Assembly (NCBI GenBank): GCA_963855995.1
Contig: OY979716.1
Span: 18,533,040 to 18,597,039, forward strand
Origin: Muricea muricata
Taxonomy: Eukaryota > Cnidaria > Anthozoa > Malacalcyonacea > Plexauridae
Direction: 5' to 3'
DNA: 64,000 bases
Part shown: positions 263 through 25,597 of the stretch, in pieces
Numbering within the stretch: the stretch's first letter is position 1
How the letters are laid out: each line of letters starts with the position of its first letter
The notes under the pieces: model-generated
Told to the model about the DNA's origin: nothing
Seen by the model: the letters and a program-made list of their open reading frames with translations, nothing else
Databases searched by the model: none
Made by a program: the position numbers and the translations under genes

Positions 263-654
263 TATGGTGGCCCATCGTTGCCATAGTGATAATCCTGCAG
301 TGTTCTCAATATTGCGGGCAAAAATTGAAATAAAAATAAAATAAATATAAAAATACAAAATCAGAATTACAAAATATGTGATTTAAAAATAAAAAAATGT
401 AAATAAAACAAAAAACCAGAACAAAAACAAATTGAAAAATTTATGAAATTAAAATAATAAGTTAAACTTTAAAATGTAAAATAGAAAACTGATTAAGTAA
501 ACAACTTTGAAAATTTCAAAACATTTGATTTTCATTTTGCTTTTTATTTTGCTATGGCAACGATGGGCCATATCGACATGTGGAATTGAAAGTAAATTTT
601 TGAATGTTTATGATGGCCCAGCGTTTCCATAGCCCACTATGTCATTGGTCAGCG
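263..654 (+). repeat. Left terminal inverted repeat of the 263-11,535 transposon
   Basis: About 390 bp that recur inverted at 7,531-7,878 plus 11,496-11,535. The repeat is itself nested: GGCCCATCGTTGCCATA motifs lie at the outer end (about 269) and, inverted, near 552-574. A related GGCCCA motif lies near 612. The inner boundary is at GTCAGCGG (about 647-654). The core is a very A/T-rich block at 300-540. Confidence 0.85.
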
Positions 655-809
655 GTGTCTCACCCGGACAATATGATGGGCATAAATGAAGTATTTCTTG
701 GGAAGTCGCTCACTCATTAAATATAATTTGCTTTATAGTTTTATATTCTCAGTGGCTGCCAGTGTTTAATAAAACGTTGACAGGTATTTATTCATATAAA
801 GCTACAACT

Positions 810-2680
810 ATGGATAACAGAATTCGAAATCCAGATTGGGAGACGGACGAAGATTTAAAATCGGATATTCAAAAGTGGCCTAGTTTACGATATGATAACT
901 CTGGTTGACCCAGAAGGTCTTGAACGTCGAAGTAATGTCGGTAGAAGGAAACGTCACCGTGGGCCAACTGGAACATTTACATCATTGGTAAGATATTTTA
1001 TATTCCAGTGCATTTGAAATGAACACCACTGTCACCACATGACAACATCCTTATCAACATTTTTAGGGACCCAACCATACACACTCTGGCGATGGACATA
1101 ACAAGCTAATGGATTATATGAACCATACTTTCCCATTGGCGGTATATGGACTTCAGTGGTTATATTTTATACTTGAAACTTTGGACGTCAAATTCTGACC
1201 CTGAACTTATTGGGCGTTGGTATTTAGAGCATCTTTACAAAACAAGAGGTGTGAATATCTAGACTTATGGGCTGAAATTTTATCATGGTTTTGCTACATG
1301 TTAAATTGTTAAAGTACCAAATGAAAGTAAAATAATTGTTAACAGCAAGTGTATCAAATGTTGCCAATAATATTGCATTCTAACGTTTCAGTGATAAGTA
1401 AGAATCTTCGATTGGATAAGGGGACTGAGACTGGTCAAATGGCCACAATTCATGGGTTTTTGAGACAAACACATGCAGATGACCAAGCAAACCAGGATGT
1501 TGTTGACACAGTACAGCGTGGTCCTTCCACAAGCAACAAGGTATTGCAAATGCAATGCATTTGGCTGAGCCTGAGTGATTGTTTATGGTTGTCAATGATT
1601 TTTGTTTAATCCAAAATATGTTGTAATTTGGTACGAAATAGAAATATGAAAAACATATAGTTATTAAAGTACTGGAAGAAGAATTGTCAAGGCCTGTCAC
1701 ATGTTCATCCTCATTAAAATTGGGTGTTTTTGCTAAATTTAGATAGAAAGGTGGTGGCGTGAGCTGCATCAGCGTTTTGAAAAATTCTTTAAAAGGCAAC
1801 TGAGGATGCTATTAGAAAGAGGATATTATGATCCAAATAACCAGACTGACAGGTACAGAGTCTATTAAATACAACTTCTAAAATAAAAAAAATGAATTCT
1901 ACTTGGTTAATTTATTCAATTTTTCATTCTCCACAGGGATCTACTTGCATTTATTTTTATTCCTGTTATCCAAAAGGAAATGAACACATTTAGAGAAACT
2001 ATATGGAACTCTCACAGAGTCAGAAGTCAGAAAGAGGCATAAATGCCTAAAGGGATCCCTAATCATTTGTATTCCTTTCCTGAAAACTATGGGGCTGAGG
2101 AATGTGGTATGAAAAGTTTAAAATTAATTTACTTCACTCATCAGTGTAATGCATATGTATGTTAAATCCACTCCTGTCATCTATTGGTGGTATGTTATAG
2201 CTTGGTTAAATTAACCCCACAATCCCACATATTATTTCTTAAAAGCTTGCAATGTGCTAACATCTTGTATAATTATAAACAATTGTCTGGTGTTAGACAA
2301 AATAGAATTGATATGATCTCCTTGCAAGTTATTCTACGTCATTCTCTGCATTAAGATTTACATGTAACTTTGCATCACTGTGTATTTTAGTTGGCACTGT
2401 CCAAATACTAAGCTATGCATGCTGAATGTCATTGAGTATCTTAATCCTGTAAATGCTTTCCAGCATAAAATTTGTATTTTATTTAGGATTACCTGTCACT
2501 GAAGAAGCTCTAGTTGAAGTGACACAGTTGTCAGGTGTTATGACTGTCGGAGACGACTTTTTATCTCCCAATGTAAGAGCAGAGTGTCAGCGAATTATTT
2601 CAGAAATAGATGGGGTGAAACCTGCGGATGCTGCTGATACCTATCTTTCTCTTAAATCCAATTATCAACCACAAGCTTAG
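810..2680 (+). pseudogene. DDE integrase-core transposase, six exons, broken
   Basis: This is probably the transposase of the surrounding element. Suggested exons are 810-987, 1,067-1,249, about 1,388-1,541, about 1,742-1,853, about 1,937-2,101 and about 2,488-2,680, most with GT/AG borders. The protein resembles the integrase-core family found in fish and cnidarians. It shows DGHNKLMDYM in exon 2 (probable first catalytic Asp), LDKGTETGQMATIH in exon 3 (second Asp), and IERWWRELHQRFE in exon 4 (catalytic Glu). The last exon ends SLKSNYQPQA and a stop. Breaks: a frameshift in exon 1 near 893-900, a frameshift in exon 2 near 1,149-1,153, and an in-frame TAA in exon 5 at about 2,039. The catalytic residues are intact but this copy cannot make a full protein. 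Family assignment is from motif reading. Confidence 0.8.
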
Positions 2681-3139
2681 TGACAGTATAGTGGAAATTT
2701 AATGTCAATTAGTTCATAGGCAAAAAACAACACCTATTATCTCACTGAGCACCAGTGTTCTCCTCTTCACCAAAAAATTGTCTGGCATTAGACAGGGTAG
2801 TGCTGTATAATAAGGTAGGGCAAAGTGTAACTCAAATTAACAAAAATGTAAAACACAAAAGTGTCTTTATACTGAGCCAAACATTATTGGTCAAGTCACT
2901 ACTCTCTAGAACACTAGATATTAATAGTAGCTACCATATTGAAAACTAAACTACTATAGTTATATTGACAGTGATAAGATAATGTTTATTGATGTAAAGT
3001 CCTCAATAAGCACATGAATAAACTAAAGTAAACAAAATAAACATGTATTTTATTTTACAACTTTAAGTGATAAAAGTTCCAGTTTATCATTTCATTGTTT
3101 GCATATTACTTCTGCTCAATTTAATGTTGTTCTTGAACT

Positions 3140-4105
3140 TTATTCACTTGGCAGCGGCAATGATAAGACAGATAAACCCATTAGTTTGCAGTACTCATTA
3201 CACACATGATTTTTTGCAAAATTCTCCATTCCCAGAGTTGTGCAGTTGCCACAACAAAAATACATTTCATTTGTCCCAAAGTCTAACACATTATCTGTAG
3301 CTATTTCAGGGTCATATAGAGTAAAATCTGAGCCCTGAATATCAAGAAGCATAAGCTTCTTCTCAGATGAATGATAGGTATAATGTACTAGGGACTGTGC
3401 CTTGGCAAATATCTCCTTGCACTGATCACTTGCTCCCTCTGGTGGTTTTGTGCACTGACCATCATTGTTGACAATCTTGACAAATTTTCCAGGCACATAC
3501 TCTTCAAAAGTTGCTGGCTCACCACTGTATGACATATAATAACAGTGGTTATATTTAAAACACTTACCAAAACTGGGTGGAGCTTTCGATTCAAATTTCT
3601 TTGTGAGGTGTCTTGCCACAGCATGCATTTGCACCTGTTTGCAACAGTGGTCTTCGACTGTTGTGTTTGCAGTCCCTTCAATTGTGTTTTTAGCCTTTGT
3701 GTTGTAGGTTTTCACAACTCATTCATTTGTTTGGTGGTTTTTAGCACTTTTCTTGCCAGTTGCATGGAAAGCATCCCTGAAAGCACCACTAGCAAATTTC
3801 TTGGTGTTAACCAAAAGTTCTTCCTCCATGACTTCTGTCCACTCCCTTGAGTTAATGTCGAATGCTTCACAAGTAACGGTTACTTTGTTTTTTGGTTGTG
3901 GTTTTGCTAGTTTGCCAGCTTTTAGCAAAGTATCTATTGATACTGATGCTGGATAGGCTGTTTCTATATTCTTGCTTTTGGCTGGACTACATGTGTCAGT
4001 TGCACTCTTACAAATTCTAGCAGTGTGTGAACTTGATCTTCTGTCATCAAAATAATCTTAAACTTGGTTTTCAGACAATGACTGGTCATCCTGCATCATC
4101 ACAAA
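3140..4105 (-). pseudogene. Alpha-kinase (MHCK/EF2K-type) catalytic domain
   Basis: Reading leftward, a linker (about 4,070-3,930) is followed by KFASGAFRDAF, which resembles the glycine-rich N-lobe of alpha-kinases. Next comes VKTYNTKAK, with the likely ATP-binding Lys, then FEEYVPGKFVKIVNNDG. Further on are HYTYHSSEKKLMLLDIQGSD, containing the DIQG catalytic/metal region, and NFAKNHVCNEYCKLMGL, matching the zinc-binding HxCNxxCxxLGL C-terminus of the family. Alpha-kinases are atypical Ser/Thr kinases such as EEF2K, TRPM6/7 and Dictyostelium MHCK. A frameshift near 3,715-3,722 separates the N-lobe from the Lys, and a stop lies upstream near 4,060. The 5' part of the gene is at 7,408-7,028. 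Target and cellular site cannot be read from sequence. Confidence 0.85.
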
Positions 4106-4162
4106 TCTTACCAGGTAAACCTGTTTAATTAAATTATCTCGTTGTGTTACTTGTATTTAATA

Positions 4163-6416
4163 TAGTCTAGGACCTGTATAGGAGTTTGTATGCATTTCAT
4201 TTGCCACAAGTAATCTCAACTGTTTTAGGGTAAAATGACCATGCCGGTCAACATGGCATATGTGCCAAAACCTGAATCCGGGGCGAAAGTCCTCAAAATG
4301 ACCCCGCCTTGAAACGGCAGTGTCGACATAGCTCTAACCTCAGACCAATGCAAGCAACGGCAATTCTGAAGTGCCTATAGTGTTTAGAAAAGTTGCTTAT
4401 AGGGGTGGTTATTAGACGCAAAACATTGCCTAACTATAATATTTTCCAAGAAAATCACCACTCAACAAGCTAGGTCAGCAACTAATTATGCATAAAATCC
4501 CTAAAATCGCTGGCAGAAATAAAATTTTCATATTTCGTAAAAAAAATTATTATAACATGAAAAACCATGTTCAATTGTATCCAATTCTTGCAGATTTCAA
4601 AAGGATTGACATTATCTTGTTGATATACAAGGCACTGTATGTCACTTACCCCCCGCAAAAACACGATTTTAGCCATATTTTCCGTCTTGTTTGCTTTTTT
4701 ATCGCCGACTAGCCGAAGTCTCATACAATTCTTGTACTTTTCCGTAATCACAGATGACTAAAGAACAATTCAGCCCAGTTTTGACTTGTTCTGAGACTGT
4801 GCCATCTACTTTATCTCCGATTTTTTCTCCTCGACAATTAGTCAAAATTGCCGCCATTACGAAGTCTTGCCGCTTTTCTGTCCGATAAATGAGGCTTCTT
4901 CGTCTTTGTGTGTATTTATACTATGTAATCCAGCAGTACTTTATACTATTGAATTTCTGAAGGTCATTTTGTTAAATTTGATCAAATTTCAAAACAAAAA
5001 TCCACCCACATAAAATCAAGTCTCTTCGAGCTTCAAAATAATTTGAAAGTCACGCGCAATCGTCACGAAAATTCCTCGTGGGCGACCATACCGGGGGGAG
5101 TGAATATTTGCACGAATGCGTTTGCATGTTTATATTTGCGTATTATTTTGTTTTTAAGCTTTAACTACAAGAAAATCTGACAGTTATGCATTTCTCCCAT
5201 GTTTATTTTGAGGGCTATGCCAGTGCAGATACGTACGTTTCAATTTTAAAATCTTAGTGGGCTAATAGTGGCTTTTAGTGGCTTAGATGCTTAGTTATTT
5301 CATACTTTAACATAATAAAAATCGCCCTTTAAATAAAAATGGGGAAATGCTTAAGTCTGTCTGATTTTCTTTTAGTTGAAGCTAAAAAACAAAACAATAC
5401 GCAAATAAACATGAACATAGATAATATGAAATGTTTACTTGGCTGTGGAAACGAGCAAACGTATTCGTGAAAATATTCACTCCCCCGGTATGATCGCCCA
5501 CGAGGAATTTTCGTGACGATTGCGCGTGACTTTCAAATTATTTTGAAGGTTGAAGACACTCGATTTTATGTGGGTGGATTTTTATATTGAAAATTGATAG
5601 AAGTTTACAAAATCACCTTTAGAAATTCAATAGTATAAAGTACTGTTGGATTGCATAGTATAAGTACACATGAAGACGAAGAAGTCACATTTATCGGACA
5701 CAAAAGCGGCAAGACTTCGTAATGGCGGCAATTTTGGCTAATTGTCGAGGATGCAAAATCGAGGATAAAGTAGACAGCACAGTCTCAGAGCAAGTCGAAA
5801 ATGGGATGAGTTGTTCTTTAGTGATCTGTGATTATGGGAAAGTACAAGAATTGTATGAGACTTCGGCTACTCGACGATAAAAAAGCGAACAAGACGGAAA
5901 ATATGGCTGAAATCGTGTTTTTGCGGGGGGTATGTGAAATACAATGTCTTGTATATCAACAAAATAATGTCAATCCTTTTGAAATCCGTAAGAATTTGAT
6001 TCAATTGAACATGGTTTTTGATGTTATAATAATTTTTTTTAGGAAATATGAAAGTTTAATTTCTGGCAGCAATTTTAGTGATTTTATGCATAATTAGCTG
6101 CTGACTTGGCATGTTGAGTGGTGATTTTCTTGGAATATATTATAGTTAGGCAATGTTTTGCTTCTAATAACCACCCCTATAAACAACCCTCCTAAACATT
6201 ATAGGCACTCCAGAAAGGCAGTTGCTTGCATTTGTCTGAGGTTAGAGCTATGTCGACACTGTCGTTTCAAGGCGGGGCCATTTTGAGGACTTTCGCCCCG
6301 GATTCGGGTTTTGGCACATATGCCATGTTGACCGGCATGGTCATTTTACCCTAAAACAGTTGAGATTACTTGTGGCAAATGAAATGCATACAAACTCATA
6401 TACAGGTCCTTGACTA
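4163..6416. mobile_element. 2.25-kb fold-back (palindromic) element
   Basis: Two roughly 1.0-1.1-kb arms are near-identical inverted copies: TAGTC.AGGACCTGTATA at 4,163 matches the complement ending at 6,416. Only about 150-200 bp of non-palindromic sequence lies in the middle (around 5,190-5,340). The arms carry matching small ORFs (4,751-4,482 on - and 5,828-6,097 on +) that are simply the same arm sequence twice. No transposase is seen. It lies within the - strand alpha-kinase gene, probably in an intron. Target duplication is not clear (A/T-rich flanks). Confidence 0.85.
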
Positions 6417-7027
6417 ATATGAAAACTTCTTTACACTTTTTGCCACATATGAAAGGCCCTGAATCACACTTTACTATTTGATTTACTCTATCTTACACCT
6501 TTCATGTTGATGTGAAACACAACTTGGGCATCACTTATAACATCTTGTGCCTTTCCATGCCTGGAACACTGACTTCCACTATTAAAGTTTCTAGCATTTA
6601 CTGGCAAGTGTGTCCAAGGACACAGTGTGTCCATGCTGACTAAAGTGACCAAACCTTGTCCTCAAACACCTTCCAATTTCCTCAATATAATTAAAACATG
6701 CATGCAATATAAAGGCCCACCAGGGGGCATTGCACCTCAATAAAATCTGTTCTTAATTGCCCATCTGAGATGGGAATTTACAAACCAACCTATTTCACAT
6801 TAAAAAACTACTGAATGTAACCCATTGTTGTGCTAATTTCTTACTTAGCCCCCAGGATCAAGGCTTATTTTAAATATTCAAATACATCAGGACAGGGCTC
6901 AAAAATTCTCAATTAAAACTGGGGCTATATCAAAATAGAAAATGGGTGTAAATATATATACTATAATATGTATTATAGAGAATCGTAAACGGAAGGTAAA
7001 TAGAGTGTGATATAAATTTAATACCTT
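6417..7027. other. Intronic sequence of the alpha-kinase gene, nothing recognised
   Basis: A/T-rich sequence between the fold-back element and the N-terminal exon. I saw no convincing exon. It is probably intron if the kinase gene model is right. Confidence 0.4.
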
Positions 7028-7408
7028 ATCTTTTCGGTGCGGGATTTGTCCGATATTGGTGCAAGAAGGACCTTTGTTTGATACTAACACATCGCACGTG
7101 CTCGCTGGTAGGTTGAAGTGGGCTGCGCACGCTTTCTTTAAGTTTACCAAGGAAAGGTCTTCGTACTCAAAGTTGACAAACTCCCTCGGTTGGACAGGTC
7201 TAAATGTTTGCTTGGTGTCGGGCTCAGACGCCAGTCTTTGTACTATGATTTCGTGAGGAGCACTTGACCCGGACTTCTTTTTTCGCCCTGACATGGCATC
7301 GTTCCGAGTTCTTTTTCCACTCATCTTTGCTTGGAGATCATTCCACAATGCTTGCCTTTTCATACCTTTTATAATCAGCAAAAATTCTCGAAGAACAGCA
7401 CAGCACAC
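7028..7408 (-). CDS. N-terminal exon of the element-borne alpha-kinase gene
   Basis: Open from an ATG at 7,408 (a later ATG is at about 7,363) to KDK at about 7,028, followed by GT, a plausible donor. The N-terminus is basic (MSGKRTRNDAMSGRKKKSG), a possible nuclear signal. A compact segment follows with FEYEDLSLVNLKKACAAHF and then CDVLVSNKGPSC. From memory, this type of module precedes alpha-kinase domains in invertebrate and fish predicted proteins, but I cannot name it with certainty. It lies just inside the right TIR and is transcribed inward. I link it to the kinase exons 3 kb downstream by strand, order and element context, and the splice path is not proven. Confidence 0.6.
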
Positions 7409-7530
7409 TACTCACACATATACTTAAAATAATTTCTGTTTTGCTGTAACAAACTCACAAAAAGCCAGCGAAAAGAGCAAAAAGCCTAGCTAAACTGCAG
7501 AACAGCAAAAGAACAGCCTGAAAAACAAGC

Positions 7531-7878
7531 CGCTGACCAATGACATAGTTGGCTATGGAAACGCTGGGCCATCATAAACATTCAAAAATTTATTTTCAAT
7601 TCCACATGTCGATATGGCCCATCGTTGCCATAGCAAAATAAAAAGCAAAATTAAAATCAAATGTTTTGAAATTTTCAAAGTTGTTTACTTAATCAGTTTT
7701 CTATTTTACATTTTAAAGTTTAATTTATTACTTTAATTTCATAAATTTTTCAATTTGTTTTTGTTCTGGTTTTTTGTTTTATTTACATTTTTTATTTTTA
7801 AATCGCATATTTTTTAATTCTGATTTTGTATTTTTATATTCATTTTTATTTTAATTTTTGCCTGCAATATTGAGAACA
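7531..7878 (-). repeat. Right TIR of the 263-11,535 transposon, inner part
   Basis: Reverse complement of 263-654, beginning at CCGCTGACC and running to TTGAGAACA at 7,878, where the CACTA-like element begins. The remaining 40 bp of this TIR lie beyond that element at 11,496-11,535. Confidence 0.85.
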
Positions 7879-7892
7879 CACTCTAAAAACAG

Positions 7893-8255
7893 GTGTGTTT
7901 GATAACACACCAAGGTGTGTTTTAGTACACCCCAAGGTGTGCACAATAGCACACAAAGGTGTGTAATTTTAACACACCTTTTTACTTATAATCAGAAAAC
8001 ACACCATGGTGTGTTGGAAAACACACCAAGGTGTGCTGGAAAACACATCAATATGTGTAAGAAAACGCACCAAGATGTGTACAAAAACACACCCTATTTT
8101 TACACACCTTTTATTACACACCTTTGAAAAATACAAGCTGTGTTAGGAAACACACCTTTTTGATGAAAACCCACCATGGTGTGTTTTGGAACACACCATG
8201 CACAAGTTTGAGAAACACAGCTAGGTGTGTTAGAAAGCACACCTTGTTTTTGGTA
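7893..8255. repeat. Left sub-terminal array of GGTGTGTT motifs
   Basis: More than a dozen irregularly spaced copies of GGTGTGTT or its complement AACACACC, often paired as short hairpins. In CACTA elements such arrays are typically transposase-binding sites. Small ORFs across it are composition artefacts. Confidence 0.85.
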
Positions 8256-8690
8256 TGTTACGAAGCAAAAGCATGAAGAATTTCATATGGTAAATATAAA
8301 TGATATATAATTTGTCATCATCATATTAACATGGTGTTAACTTCAGTTTATCGTCCTATCATGGCGACTCAGAATATCGAGCTTAGTCTTAGATATTCAA
8401 ATCTTGATGTGTTAAAAATATTAGCCAAAATATGATTAAAACTCTCACCATACATCAGATCTATGCCGCCCGGTTGTCCAGTAGCAGTTAGATAAGAATG
8501 TTATGTATTTATTTTTTCCTTACCCGATAAAAATGTAAACTATTTCATTTTTCGTTCCGCGGGCAAGTAGGTTTTTATCCAGGTGTTTCTAGAGATCAGT
8601 GGTAGTACTACGCGCGCAAAGCTCACCGGGAATCTTCACACTTGGACTCCATATATTTGCACGTTGTATTATAAATGGTGATGTTTATAG

Positions 8691-10340
8691 CAAAAGAAAC
8701 AGTATTTTAGCCAATATTGTCAAAGAAATAACTCCCAATACATCACAAAGGAAGGTGTAAAAGTCAGGTAAGCACACTGTTTTCATTTTTGTATGGATAA
8801 AGCAAATTTAACGTGTAATATTTACTTCCTTGAATTCCTTCCATCGTTCATAATTTTAATAGAATCGTGTTGCATTTGAAATTTGAATTTCGCGCGATAG
8901 TATTTGGAAATGGATAGATTTAAATTCATTTACTTTATTTTCCTTGATGCATAGCATTTAGTTCGATTCTGTTAACTTGTCTTTTTTGGACTGGCAAGAT
9001 TTTAATAGTGCCTCTTGCCTTGATTGCCTGATGGGGTCATGTTATGATGTGGTCATAAAGGCTTGAAGCCAGACTCAATGGCTGACTGATCATCTAAGCA
9101 GGGAAATTTAATGGCCTTTAACTACTTTCTACATTGCTGAGTTTTTAACATTCATTTACTTACAAAAATATAAGTACTTAAAACTTTCATAGTTCAAACA
9201 ATTTCATTAGTGCTCAAACTGTTTCATTGTAAGATTTGTTATGCTGCATTAATATGCTCCAGTAAAAAAGTTTTTGGCTATCCAGTTGAAACTACATTAA
9301 TAGTCATGTAAAAGTCTACGCAGGGTTTATATAGTTCTGAATGGCAGTAAAATATTTTGGTTGCAATGATGACTTGGCTTTAATCAGGCCAACTATTGGA
9401 ATGCTTCTCAACAAAATATTAGAATTACACTCTTAACCTTATATCACCTATTATTACAAGCATAAATGCTTGTAAGCACTGTGATGTGTAAAGTCAAAGA
9501 TACTAATTGGCCTACTGTCAACATCCTATTACCGATACTGAAGAATCCTTAACACTGAACATGTTTGACACCATAATGCTTAGATTTGTGTCGTTCGAAT
9601 AAAGACTTCCTGCCCCTCTAATCAAACTTGCTGTATAACTGGGAGGAAAGAAATAGTGTTTAATTCATGATAATGATAAAATATTGTGTGACATTGAAAT
9701 GTTGGTAAAGGAAATTAAATCAGTTTTAGGGGGGAAGGTGCAAATGTCTAAAATTACATATCAATTTGCCCTAATTAACCATGAATTAGCCTCACTGCTC
9801 TTTCTGAGGCAGAGCATGTTGTGTTGAACAATAAACCTTTATGCCATAATGTTTTTTCCATACTTAGTGTCTTACATTATACAGTACTTGATTTTATAAT
9901 GTCAATTTGCTTGACACCAAACAATTCCATTCATCAATGGAAAAGTGCTACTAGTAAATCTGTTGAATTAAATGTAAAATTATAAACTTTGCTATTTTTT
10001 TATTCATTTCTGATAAATGTACTAGGAAGAGTGCTGATACTTCTTTAATGCATTGTTTTTTGTCAAATCAAATAATAGAATATTTTGCATAGAAGGGTGA
10101 TTTATGATAACCTCATGTACAGTATTATTGCATTGAATGTCTAAGTTATACCTTGTTATGTAAGATATAATACTTATCTTAATATATGACGTATCTTATT
10201 ATAGACCTACAAAATTTGGATTTCATGCATATAACTGCCTGGAAACAGCTTTGGGTAAACTTGCATGCGAAGTCAAAGCAAATGATGCAAGGCTTCGTTT
10301 AAAAAAGTTGAATCAAATGCTGCAAGGCTTCAACAATTAG
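8691..10340 (+). other. Possible two-exon gene fragment inside the CACTA-like element
   Basis: Candidate exon 8,691-8,767 is preceded by TTATAG and followed by GTAAGC. Candidate exon 10,205-10,340 is preceded by TTATAG and ends in a stop. Joined, they read open without a shift, and the second exon gives FGFHAYNCLETALGKLACEV and ends LNQMLQGFNN. I do not recognise the product, and no start codon lies in these two exons. It could be a remnant of an element gene, a captured fragment, or chance. The intervening 8,768-10,204 shows nothing else. Confidence 0.25.
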
Positions 10341-11040
10341 ATGCAAGATATTTTGATTCATGATTCAGCCTTGGAAAATATGGGATTCCAGACCAGTAAC
10401 TCCAGTAAGCAGTTTAAGAGCATTCGAACATGTTATTTGAAAATGTGTGACAATGAGAATTTTGAACTCTGCGCTAATTAGTAATTATGTAGTGATTACC
10501 TATTGATATATGTAATAAACATACTAACTGTTCCCAAGACCATTAAATTGTTGATATACATGTCTGTGACACAACCAGAAAACTAATTGGTTGAATTATT
10601 CATAAATTTGTTGGTTAAAACAGCCAAAAACAACTATTTACAGCAACAACAACAAAAAAATTTACTTTGTGGACCATTTATTCCTTGGCTGTTTTAACCA
10701 ATTAACTCAGATGCATCTAACTGTATGAAAACTGGCCTTGTTAGTACTCTGATAGATATGATCTTAGTATTATATGTCTTTGCCAAGTCCTACCCTCACA
10801 GTATGATTGTGGTGCTGTTTATTTTTTATGAAATTGTTTTGAACTGCAGTAAGAATGCTTATTGAGGTTGATGACTGAGTGATTATTATATATTTCCTAA
10901 CTGCATGTGCTGTGTATATTCTGTAACTTGTGTTATTAGTCTGATACAATAGAAATAAAAAGTGTCATTTATGAATTTACCAGTTAAAGGATAATACATT
11001 CTCAACAAGTTCAAGTATCTGTACTCATATAACTATATAT

Positions 11041-11482
11041 AGTGTGTTTTCTTCAGGTAAAACTGAATCATGTGCTTTTCAAAAGGTGTGTAAAAAAGCA
11101 TGTCTATTGGTGTGTTATAATAAAGCACTTTCTAGGTGTGTAACAAAACCCACCAAAGTGTGTTTGAAAACGCACCATGGTGTGCTAGAAAACACACCGA
11201 GGTGTGTTAGAAAACGCACCAAGGTGTGCTAGAAAACACACCTTTATACAAAACCCACCTTATGGTGTGTTAAAATTTGGACAGGCAGAAAACACACCTT
11301 AAGGTGCGTTTTGTAACACACCTAAAGGTGTGTTTAACACACCTTAACGTGTGTTAAACACACCTTAAGATGTGTTGTAAAACCCAACTTAGGGTGTGTT
11401 AAACACACCTTAAGGCGTGTTTTAAAACCCACCTTAAGGTGTGTTAAAATTTGGACAAAAAGGTGTGTTAAATTAACACACC
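11041..11482. repeat. Right sub-terminal array of GGTGTGTT motifs
   Basis: Counterpart of the left array. Many copies of the same motif in both orientations end immediately inside the right terminus, several as head-to-head pairs (GGTGTGTT followed by AACACACC). Confidence 0.85.
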
Positions 11483-11495
11483 TTTTTTTAGAGTG

Positions 11496-11535
11496 CACTG
11501 CAGGATTATCACTATGGCAACGATGGGCCACCATA
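11496..11535 (-). repeat. Right TIR of the 263-11,535 transposon, outer part
   Basis: The terminal 40 bp of the right TIR, ending GGGCCACCATA. They are separated from the inner part by the CACTA-like insertion. The first two bases (CA) duplicate 7,877-7,878 and are the target duplication of that insertion. Confidence 0.85.
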
Positions 11536-12895
11536 CCAAGGTGTGTTCATCCAATTGCATGCCATTCCCGATAAGGCCTGTAAACCTGACTCATAATCAT
11601 TACGTTCACCTGAACCAGCCTCATACTAATAAATTCACATCATGTTGGACGCTAAGAGTATAGTTGTGTGACATTTAGTCATTAAGATGTAAGTGTCATC
11701 TTTACAAGCAAAATTATCTGGTGTTGTAGCACAGGTTAAATTAATAATTAAAGTAGGATCTCTGGAGCATTGGGGCTCAATAGTTCAACAAAACAAATTG
11801 ACATACAGTGCTGTATAGCAAGGGCCTTCCTTTTGCAGGTAATATCATCTGGTGTTCACCTAGTGTGAAATAACAAACAAGTAATGTCATTGGAGAGCAT
11901 TGATTCTTATAATTAGTTAGTCACTAAAGAAATATAAGGGAAGTTTTGTTACACCATAAAGATGCTTGTATCTTCCTTTTTGGAGTAAAGTTAATTATCT
12001 GGTTTCCAAAGGCTAAAATAGTATAGAATAGGTTTCTTTGGTGAGCACTGCTGTTTTTAATTAATTGTCGATAAGTAAAATTTTCATATACTGTACATTA
12101 AGTTTAATTTTGTTAAGTCATTGGCATGCACAATGAGGCGCTCCTACCTGCTCTAGTTTATTTGTTAGTAAAATCATCTCATGTCATATAGTTTAGGGTG
12201 ATAAATTATTTATGATTCTAATTTTTGTACTAAATTCCGTAATTCTTTGTAATTGATTTTTTATAATAAATTCTAAGGCATAATATACATATGTAGAACT
12301 GTGTATTCCATTACATTTACTGTATTCACTAAGTATTACAGCTCAGTTTTTATATTGTGTGCCCTATTCTACAGTAAGCCTTAATTCATACTTCTTTACA
12401 ACTATATTGTTGAAAACCACAAATTTTACATTAGTTTCCAATTCCACTTTGCCTTTTTGTTTATTGGTGTAATGTATAAATTTTCAAAGCTCGTGCATAG
12501 TGAGCTTTATCAGCAAAGATGACCAAGATGAACAATATTGTCACACAAACCAGCTTAACGCAGCTATGTTTTAAACACATATTTTAACATCTAGCCGGTT
12601 TTAACAGAGGCGTTATATATATGTTTGTACTTGTGCAAACAACAGCTAGATAGCCTACGCGATACAGTATATTGTGTTTGCGCAGTTGAAGCATTCCGGC
12701 ATTCATATTATATCGCAAAACCAGAAATACATTTAGTAAAAGCTTATGCACAAGAGCTTGTTGTGCGTCAAAATGATAGTGAAAATTCGTGCGTGCTTGT
12801 CTTATTGATTTAATGAAATTTCCGTGTGTGCTTAAACAAACATTAAATGTCTCGCTTGGTTTAAGTGGTGTTTCGAGTACACATTAAATCATTAA
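11536..12895. repeat. Duplicated host segment copy A, middle part
   Basis: Closely similar to 23,982-25,390 throughout, with small indels. No convincing coding sequence. Begins with the CCAAGG target duplication of the first transposon and ends with TTAA (12,892-12,895), the target of the next insertion. Confidence 0.85.
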
Positions 12896-23744: not shown

Positions 23745-25597
23745 ATTCTCAATAGATATCATAAGGTGCTAATTCTTAATTATGCAAGGCTTTATCTAAC
23801 AGCAAACACTGCAACTGAATTGTCCGTAAAATTATTTGTTTTATTAATTATTTCTTATCCGCATTAAAAATTGTGGCTTTTTGTAAACTAAAAGTTAGTT
23901 GAAAATACCCTTCAAACATTACACCATGTGTCAAAGGTAGGCATGCGTTTTATTGCGCACCATGGCGAGTTTAAAGGTGTGCCAAGGTGTGCATGTTCAT
24001 CCAATTGCATGCCATTCCCGATAAGGCCTGTAAGCCTGACTCATAATCATTATGTTCACCTGAACCAGCCTCATACTAGTAAATTCACATCATGTTGGAC
24101 GCTGAGAGTATAGTTGTGTGACATTTAGTCATTAAGATGTAAGTGTCATCTTTACATTTTATCTGGTTATCTGGTTTTGTAGCAGAGGTTAAATTAATAA
24201 AGTAGGGTCTCTGGAGCATTGGTGCTCAATAGCTCAATAAAAGAAATTGACATACAGTGCTGTATAGCAAGGGCCTTCCTTTTGTAGGTAATATCATCTG
24301 GTGTTCACCTAGTGTGAAATAAAAAATAAGTAATGTCACTGAAGAGCATTGATTCTTATAGTTAGTTAGTCACTAAGAAATATAAGGGCATTTAGGGTAG
24401 TTTTGTTACACCATAAAGATGCTTGTATCCCCCTTTTGTGAGTAAAGTTAATTATCTGGTTTCCAAAGGCTAAAATAGTATAGAATAGGTTTCTTTGGTG
24501 AGCACTGCTGTTTTTAATTATTTGTCGATATTAAGTAAAATTTTCATATACTGTACATTAAGTTTAATTTTGTTAAGTCATTGGCATGCACAATGAGGCG
24601 CTCCTACCTGCTCTAGTTTATTTGTTAGTAAAATCATCTCATGTCATATAGTTTAGAGTGATAAATTATTTATGATTCTAATTTTTGTTCAAAATTCTGT
24701 AATTCTTTGTAATTGATTTTTTATAATAAATTCTAAGGCATAATATACATATGTAGTACTGTGTATTCCATTACATTTACTGTATTCACTAATCTATTAC
24801 AATTTCAACTATTGTACAGCTCAGTTTTTATATTGTGTGCCCTATTCTACAGTAAGCCTTAATTCATAACTTCTTTACAACTATATTGTTGATAACCACA
24901 AATTTTACATTAGTTTCCAATTCCACTTTGCCTTTTTGTTTATTGGTGTAATGTATAGATTTTCAAAGCTTAAATTTTGTGGCTCGTGCATAGTGAGCTA
25001 TATCAGCAAAGATGACCAAGATGAACAATATTGTCACACAAACCAGCTTAACGCAGCTATGTTTTAAGCACATATTTTAACATCTAGCCGGTTTTAACAG
25101 AAGCGTTATATATATGTTTGTTCTTGTGCAAACAACAGCTAGATAGCCTATACGCGATACAGTATATTGTGTTTGCGCAGTCGAAGCATTCCGGCATTCA
25201 TATTATATCGCAAAACCAGAAATACATTTAGTAAAAGCTTATGCACAAGAGCTTGTTGTGCGTCAAAATGATAGTGAAAATTCGTGTGTGCTTGTCTCAT
25301 TAATTTAATGAAATTTTCGAGTGCGCTTAAACAAACATTAAATGTCTCGCTTGGTTTAAGTGGTGTATCGAGTGCACATTAAATCATTAAAGGAGAATGA
25401 TTACCTTTAGTTCACTAATAGTTGAACATTAAATCAACATGAATTTATATAACTGCTTTCCTCAACGTTGTTATTATTAAAGCCCATTAAAGCTCGTTTA
25501 AAAAGCTTGCTCTCAAGATTTAAGGAATTTTTGATTTTCCTTATTAAAGACAATTAAATTCAAATTTTGATTCATCCTGTGCCAGTACGAAGTCATC

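Follow-up and report, generated by a model that had tools for sequence, protein, structure and literature searches.

A 64,000-nucleotide stretch of the Muricea muricata genome (contig OY979716.1, positions 18,533,040 to 18,597,039; this whole stretch is called the window below) carries at positions 263-11535 a single transposon delimited by inverted repeats of the form TATGG..CCATA. We consider it very probable that this is a dead, twice-invaded cut-and-paste element of the IS3EU type, which normally encodes a DDE transposase together with a convergent alpha-kinase bearing a predicted ubiquitin-like module. To our knowledge, cut-and-paste transposons seldom have a protein kinase among their core genes. 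The features of the element and of its target are, in window coordinates (L050 being a sibling copy elsewhere in the genome):

257-262: left target-site duplication (TSD), CCAAGG, identical to 11536-11541 and single at the empty site within the window
263-655, + strand: left terminal inverted repeat (TIR), beginning TATGGTGGCCCATCG, from inverted-repeat pairs
about 810-2680, + strand: transposase gene, intron-bearing and broken, matching PF24764 (rva_4), with its last piece at 2489-2680
3140-4090, - strand: alpha-kinase exon 2, catalytic domain, matching PF02816
4163-6416 (borders approximate): nested insertion, foldback-like, within the intron of the kinase gene; its two inverted arms, each of 935 nt and 92% complementary, are separated by 384 nt, from an inverted-repeat pair
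7025-7363, - strand: alpha-kinase exon 1, basic start and predicted ubiquitin-like module, aligning with the N-termini of other copies
7530-7879, - strand: right TIR, inner portion, from inverted-repeat pairs and the L050 alignment
about 7879-11495: nested insertion dividing the right TIR, borders from the L050 alignment
11496-11535, - strand: right TIR, outer portion, ending CCACCATA, from an inverted-repeat pair and 100% identical to the L050 ends
11536-11541: right TSD, CCAAGG
23928-24050, + strand: empty site, the host repeat in uninvaded form, 92% identical to the joined flanks

The extremities of the element read TATGGTGGCCCATCG and CGATGGGCCACCATA, with CCAAGG flanking both, and inverted-repeat detection paired 261-307 with 11491-11537 (96%) and 383-655 with 7530-7802 (97%), the TIRs being about 390 bp in size. 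When the flanks were joined around one CCAAGG (119 bp), five uninterrupted matches of 117-123 bp and 92-97% identity were found in the genome besides the element's own two flanks. These five matches indicate that the insertion is real and that its target was a repeat; the aligned empty site at 23928-24050 has CCAAGG once where the insertion would lie, followed directly by 4 inserted bp. The original prediction of a long TIR pair with an empty site is thus borne out, and the element also has an exact 6-bp TSD. The element spans 11.3 kb with its two nested insertions and about 5.4 kb without them. The insertion at 7879-11495 has the ends CACTCTAAA..TTTAGAGTG (CACTC..GAGTG), a 2-3 bp duplication and arrays of a 22-bp AAAACACACCAAGGTGTGTTAG-like repeat close to both ends, features by which we take it to resemble CACTA/EnSpm; none of the open reading frames within this insertion reaches 90 aa.

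Two convergent genes lie inside the TIRs, as had been read from the DNA at the outset: an integrase-type DDE transposase on the + strand and an alpha-kinase on the - strand. The joined transposase pieces of 1388-2679 match PF24764 with an E value of 5.8e-13, and aligned motifs place the pieces of the DDE triad near 1066-1150 (D1), at 1388-1540 (D2) and at 1743-1853 (E); the gene is damaged by an in-frame TAA and by the absence of about 250 bp near position 876 relative to L050. The kinase matches PF02816 (E 8.9e-32, stops read as X), and its exon 2 is interrupted in frame by a TAA at 4058-4060 and a TGA at 3719-3721; exon 1 would end at a splice donor AAG/GTATTA, and the exon 2 acceptor is likewise a putative one. 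Because both genes are broken, the window element must be a dead copy.

The structure model of the kinase of L049, another copy in the same genome, has a predicted local distance difference test score (pLDDT) of 82.4 and finds the TRPM7 kinase as its best PDB match (1ia9, E 1.5e-19), while PDB sequence matches to TRPM7, eEF2 kinase and myosin heavy chain kinase A have E values of 5e-10 to 2e-9 (best chain each). The element kinase has the PF02816 motifs in common with these three alpha-kinases and its sequence match to them is limited to the catalytic part; it differs from them in its N-terminal module and in being encoded by a transposon. Structural modelling suggests that the kinase of a relative with an open kinase frame consists of a ubiquitin-like domain, provisionally so assigned, and an alpha-kinase. 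Of the basic and folded N-terminal module first proposed for the window kinase, the basic start and an exon 1 module that aligns with other copies are both present, the ubiquitin-like character of the module being a prediction; L060, which has a stop in its translation, and L046 were left out of this N-domain alignment.

The kinase-transposase pair is not confined to the window. The genome was searched with the window kinase, which gave 126 matches (126 of 232 candidates scored), and with the transposase, which gave 176 matches, 150 of them listed (150 of 767 candidates scored); all copy counts are lower bounds. The matches listed merge into at least 114 kinase and at least 111 transposase loci, and among them a transposase lies within 10 kb of the kinase at 87 of the 114 kinase loci (within 3 kb at 83), the two genes being convergent in 87 of 87 cases. 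We fetched 15 elements, four picked by kinase match alone and 11 picked among paired loci, and the convergent pair is present in every one of them. In five, of 3.8-6.3 kb, both TATGG ends fall inside the fetched stretch; the 6-bp TSD is exact in L048, L049, L059 and L061 and matches at five of six bases in L046. In L049 the transposase frame is open over 356 aa and the kinase measures 437 aa; in L048 the kinase has 415 aa and the transposase frame 355 aa, with an apparently frameshifted tail. Whether other copies carry both genes had been named as a test at the outset, and the four loci picked by kinase match alone, like the 87 paired loci, show that they do.

The two genes also diverge in parallel. 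Across 16 elements (the 15 fetched and the window copy), kinase and transposase protein distances are correlated with r=0.842, a value that 0 of 5000 permutations reach, although these permutations ignore shared clades. Nearest-neighbour distances of the kinase reach 0.6 among these elements. Nine kinase residues, including the ATP lysine, the catalytic Asp/Gln and the zinc His/His/Cys/Cys, are conserved in 16 of 16; their presumed roles are transferred from TRPM7 and are partly visible in the alignment with PDB sequences. The transposase triad is retained in 16 (D1), 15 (D2) and 13 (E) of the 16. Pairwise NG86 dN/dS was mostly saturated and we therefore used a codon model, on sets that excluded near-identical rows and rows with less than 60% coverage. 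The resulting omega is 0.081 for the kinase (17 sequences) and 0.045 for the transposase (13 sequences), values to be read qualitatively given the long branches, and omega=1 fits more poorly by 826 and 939 log-likelihood units, respectively, in runs that also had kappa fixed at 2. The dN/dS comparison called for at the outset thus finds the kinase under purifying selection across diverged copies. This and the recurrence of the pair agree with the early view of a co-adapted two-gene element as opposed to a chance capture. The conserved catalytic residues and the constraint on the kinase suggest, as far as sequences can tell, that it is an active enzyme serving the element.

By its ends, TSD and transposase type the element fits the IS3EU superfamily. 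According to the accessible text of PMC12730594 (Kojima 2025), IS3EU elements are recognised by a 6-bp TSD, TAYGG..CCRTA termini and a TIR of more than 30 bp; the accessible text of PMC10045372 gives IS3EU/GingerRoot, not separated there from IS481EU, TA..TA termini, usually a 6-bp TSD and an IS3/IS481-type DDE core. The window element has a 6-bp TSD, TATGG..CCATA ends, TIRs of about 390 bp, an integrase-type DDE transposase like those of IS3/IS481 and an oppositely oriented alpha-kinase. In a passing mention, the same portion of PMC12730594 states that all TET+ IS3EU families have a TET/JBP gene between an oppositely oriented transposase and alpha-kinase. With these elements of rust fungi and Tuber the window element shares the 6-bp TSD, the TAYGG..CCRTA termini and the opposite gene pair; it differs in its animal host and possibly in the predicted ubiquitin-like domain of its kinase, and whereas the fungal elements have TET/JBP, none was noticed here, no search having been aimed at it. 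What it has in common with IS3EU/GingerRoot are the TA..TA termini, the 6-bp TSD usual there and the IS3/IS481-type DDE core; the word kinase is absent from the main text of PMC10045372 in its accessible form. The alpha-kinase had been regarded as unusual cargo, but since the pair is already in print for fungal IS3EU (PMC12730594, accessible part), it is not unusual for the superfamily. Among the titles and abstract openings covered by our literature search, with Repbase and subscription journals outside its scope, PMC12730594 alone links IS3EU to a kinase, and no account from an animal was found. The pairing is therefore known in kind and little studied; new are its breadth in an animal genome, the co-inheritance of the two genes and the predicted domain make-up of the kinase.

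Several observations weigh against a regular two-gene element. Among the matches listed, 27 of the 114 kinase loci are more than 10 kb from any transposase; 25 of the 111 transposase loci are the nearest partner of no kinase. Kinase and transposase nearest neighbours concur in just 11 of the 16 elements, and L051 and L058 are separated by 0.04 in the kinase and by 0.20 in the transposase; a degree of exchange between elements, or noise in the alignments, may lie behind this. The catalytic Glu of the transposase was not seen in three of the 16 elements. Close kinase pairs give a mixed picture, with nine nonsynonymous and no synonymous changes in L049/L031 and a ratio of about 1 in L027/L028, next to ratios of 0.29 in L048/L027 and 0.05 in L018/L021. 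Lastly, L050 carries no kinase. A search of the 453-Mb genome for the 28-bp end, allowing up to two mismatches, gives four occurrences, namely both ends of the window copy and of L050 (contig C1:60915429-60918502), which sits in an exact TSD, CTCATC. L050 keeps the transposase and both TIRs, its alignment breaks off at window position 3010 and resumes at the right TIR, and a kinase profile search of it gave no match; by this internal deletion, one of the two exact-family copies has lost the kinase. A sibling of this kind, with a perfect TSD, leaves room for movement in which no kinase acts in cis, and its clean TSD fits a trans-acting factor or a deletion after insertion.

L050 is also what a one-off capture of a host alpha-kinase gene by a single transposon would have in its favour, and the original prediction had named family members without the kinase, together with a full-length match of the kinase to a single host gene, as the sign of such an event. 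The sole other exact-family copy found does lack it; however, the loss left the transposase and both TIRs in place, and the convergent pair stands at 87 loci among the matches listed, in elements with nearest-neighbour kinase distances of up to 0.6. As the pair recurs across diverged families, we reject a one-off capture, which we consider very improbable. More improbable still is that the kinases belong to a host gene family that has expanded and beside which IS3EU inserts by preference. The labels TRPM6-like, EEF2K and myosin heavy chain kinase D-like that public annotations give to relatives would fit such a family, but the kinase is situated within the TIRs and between the TSDs in the window and in the five fetched elements with both ends read, for which this explanation is refuted, and all 87 pairs among the matches listed have one orientation. 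A passenger kinase whose benefit to the element is indirect, such as a weakening of host defence, and which has no part in transposition, is far more credible than either of these, if still unlikely. Such a role agrees with L050, which lacks the kinase and has a perfect TSD, and also with the TET/JBP gene between both genes of fungal TET+ IS3EU, which is thought to help these elements escape silencing (PMC12730594, accessible part). The correlated divergence of the two genes and a strong constraint similar to that on the transposase rather suggest a core role, with which an anti-defence function would still be compatible.

We thus favour an IS3EU-type element with a transposase and a convergent alpha-kinase as its regular genes. 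From what is known of the family, the transposase would cut at the TATGG/CCATA ends and join them across a 6-bp stagger; each TIR may drive the gene next to it, and the kinase may be a helper acting in trans by phosphorylating a nuclear protein. Our leading guess for its target, and a tentative one, is the transposase or the transpososome, whose activity, localisation or timing would be controlled; a host factor of silencing, chromatin or repair is a guess we find rather unlikely, and some other target a slightly weaker guess still, so that the transposase and a nuclear host factor taken together are more likely than any other target. It is tempting to speculate that kinase-bearing IS3EU is a two-component, kinase-gated system in which the ubiquitin-like/alpha-kinase protein is an obligate partner, phosphorylation switches the transpososome or host opponents, and both genes are co-inherited across animals and perhaps fungi; the alpha-kinase expansions of rusts and many animal TRPM6-, EEF2K- and MHCK-like genes would then be largely transposon genes. 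We hold this broader proposal to be possible, and somewhat doubtful as a whole. If the kinase is a conserved partner, phosphorylation control of transposition becomes testable with an enzyme encoded by the element itself.

Cnidarian and tunicate proteomes contain relatives of both proteins. Kinase relatives from Ciona, Phallusia, Stylophora, Paramuricea, Actinia and Dendronephthya bear the names of host genes, namely myosin heavy chain kinase D(-like), EEF2K, TRPM6(-like) and alpha-protein kinase 2, a warning for annotation that such names on kinase relatives may mask transposon genes. Among the 149 kinase and 116 transposase matches listed from other assemblies, ten kinase-transposase pairs lie on contigs of identical size, against a mean of 1.15 and a maximum of 4 in 100 shifted controls; nine of the ten, over eight contig sizes, are on contigs of at least 5 kb, where every control gave 0. 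This hints that the two genes reside together elsewhere too, including in Ciona intestinalis and Dendronephthya gigantea, and it is only a hint because some of the contigs concerned run to megabases. In the viral contigs of IMG/VR, the kinase profile yielded 293 pattern matches and no relative among them, leaving a viral carrier unsupported. The accessible text of PMC4469406 reports an alpha-kinase family highly expanded in rusts; because PMC12730594, in its accessible part, places an alpha-kinase in fungal IS3EU, this expansion merits a recheck as possible transposon content.

Three distant rva_4 transposases (L062, L063 and L064, about 29% identity), with open frames of 396-418 aa, show no clear TIR and, across their 9 kb, no match to the kinase; they look like a separate transposase clade, perhaps a kinase-less one, and were set apart from the analysis. 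The loci are strongly biased towards contig C1, which represents 124 of 453 Mb (27%) and holds 95 of the 114 kinase and 91 of the 111 transposase loci among the matches listed; C1 could be a chromosome rich in transposons, or else unplaced sequence that was joined together. At 49.70-49.75 Mb of C1, five kinase copies follow one another about 11.48 kb apart on one strand, and three with equal spacing lie on the opposite strand at 50.08-50.10 Mb, a pattern of tandem amplification of a unit that holds an IS3EU element, and possibly of a large inverted arrangement. Outside the element at L049 (2107-2682, - strand), a 191-aa frame resembles by eye the catalytic region of a conventional protein kinase. 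The remainder of the window (12000-64000) looks transposon-dense, many reverse-transcriptase-like and integrase-like open frames being recognisable there by eye.

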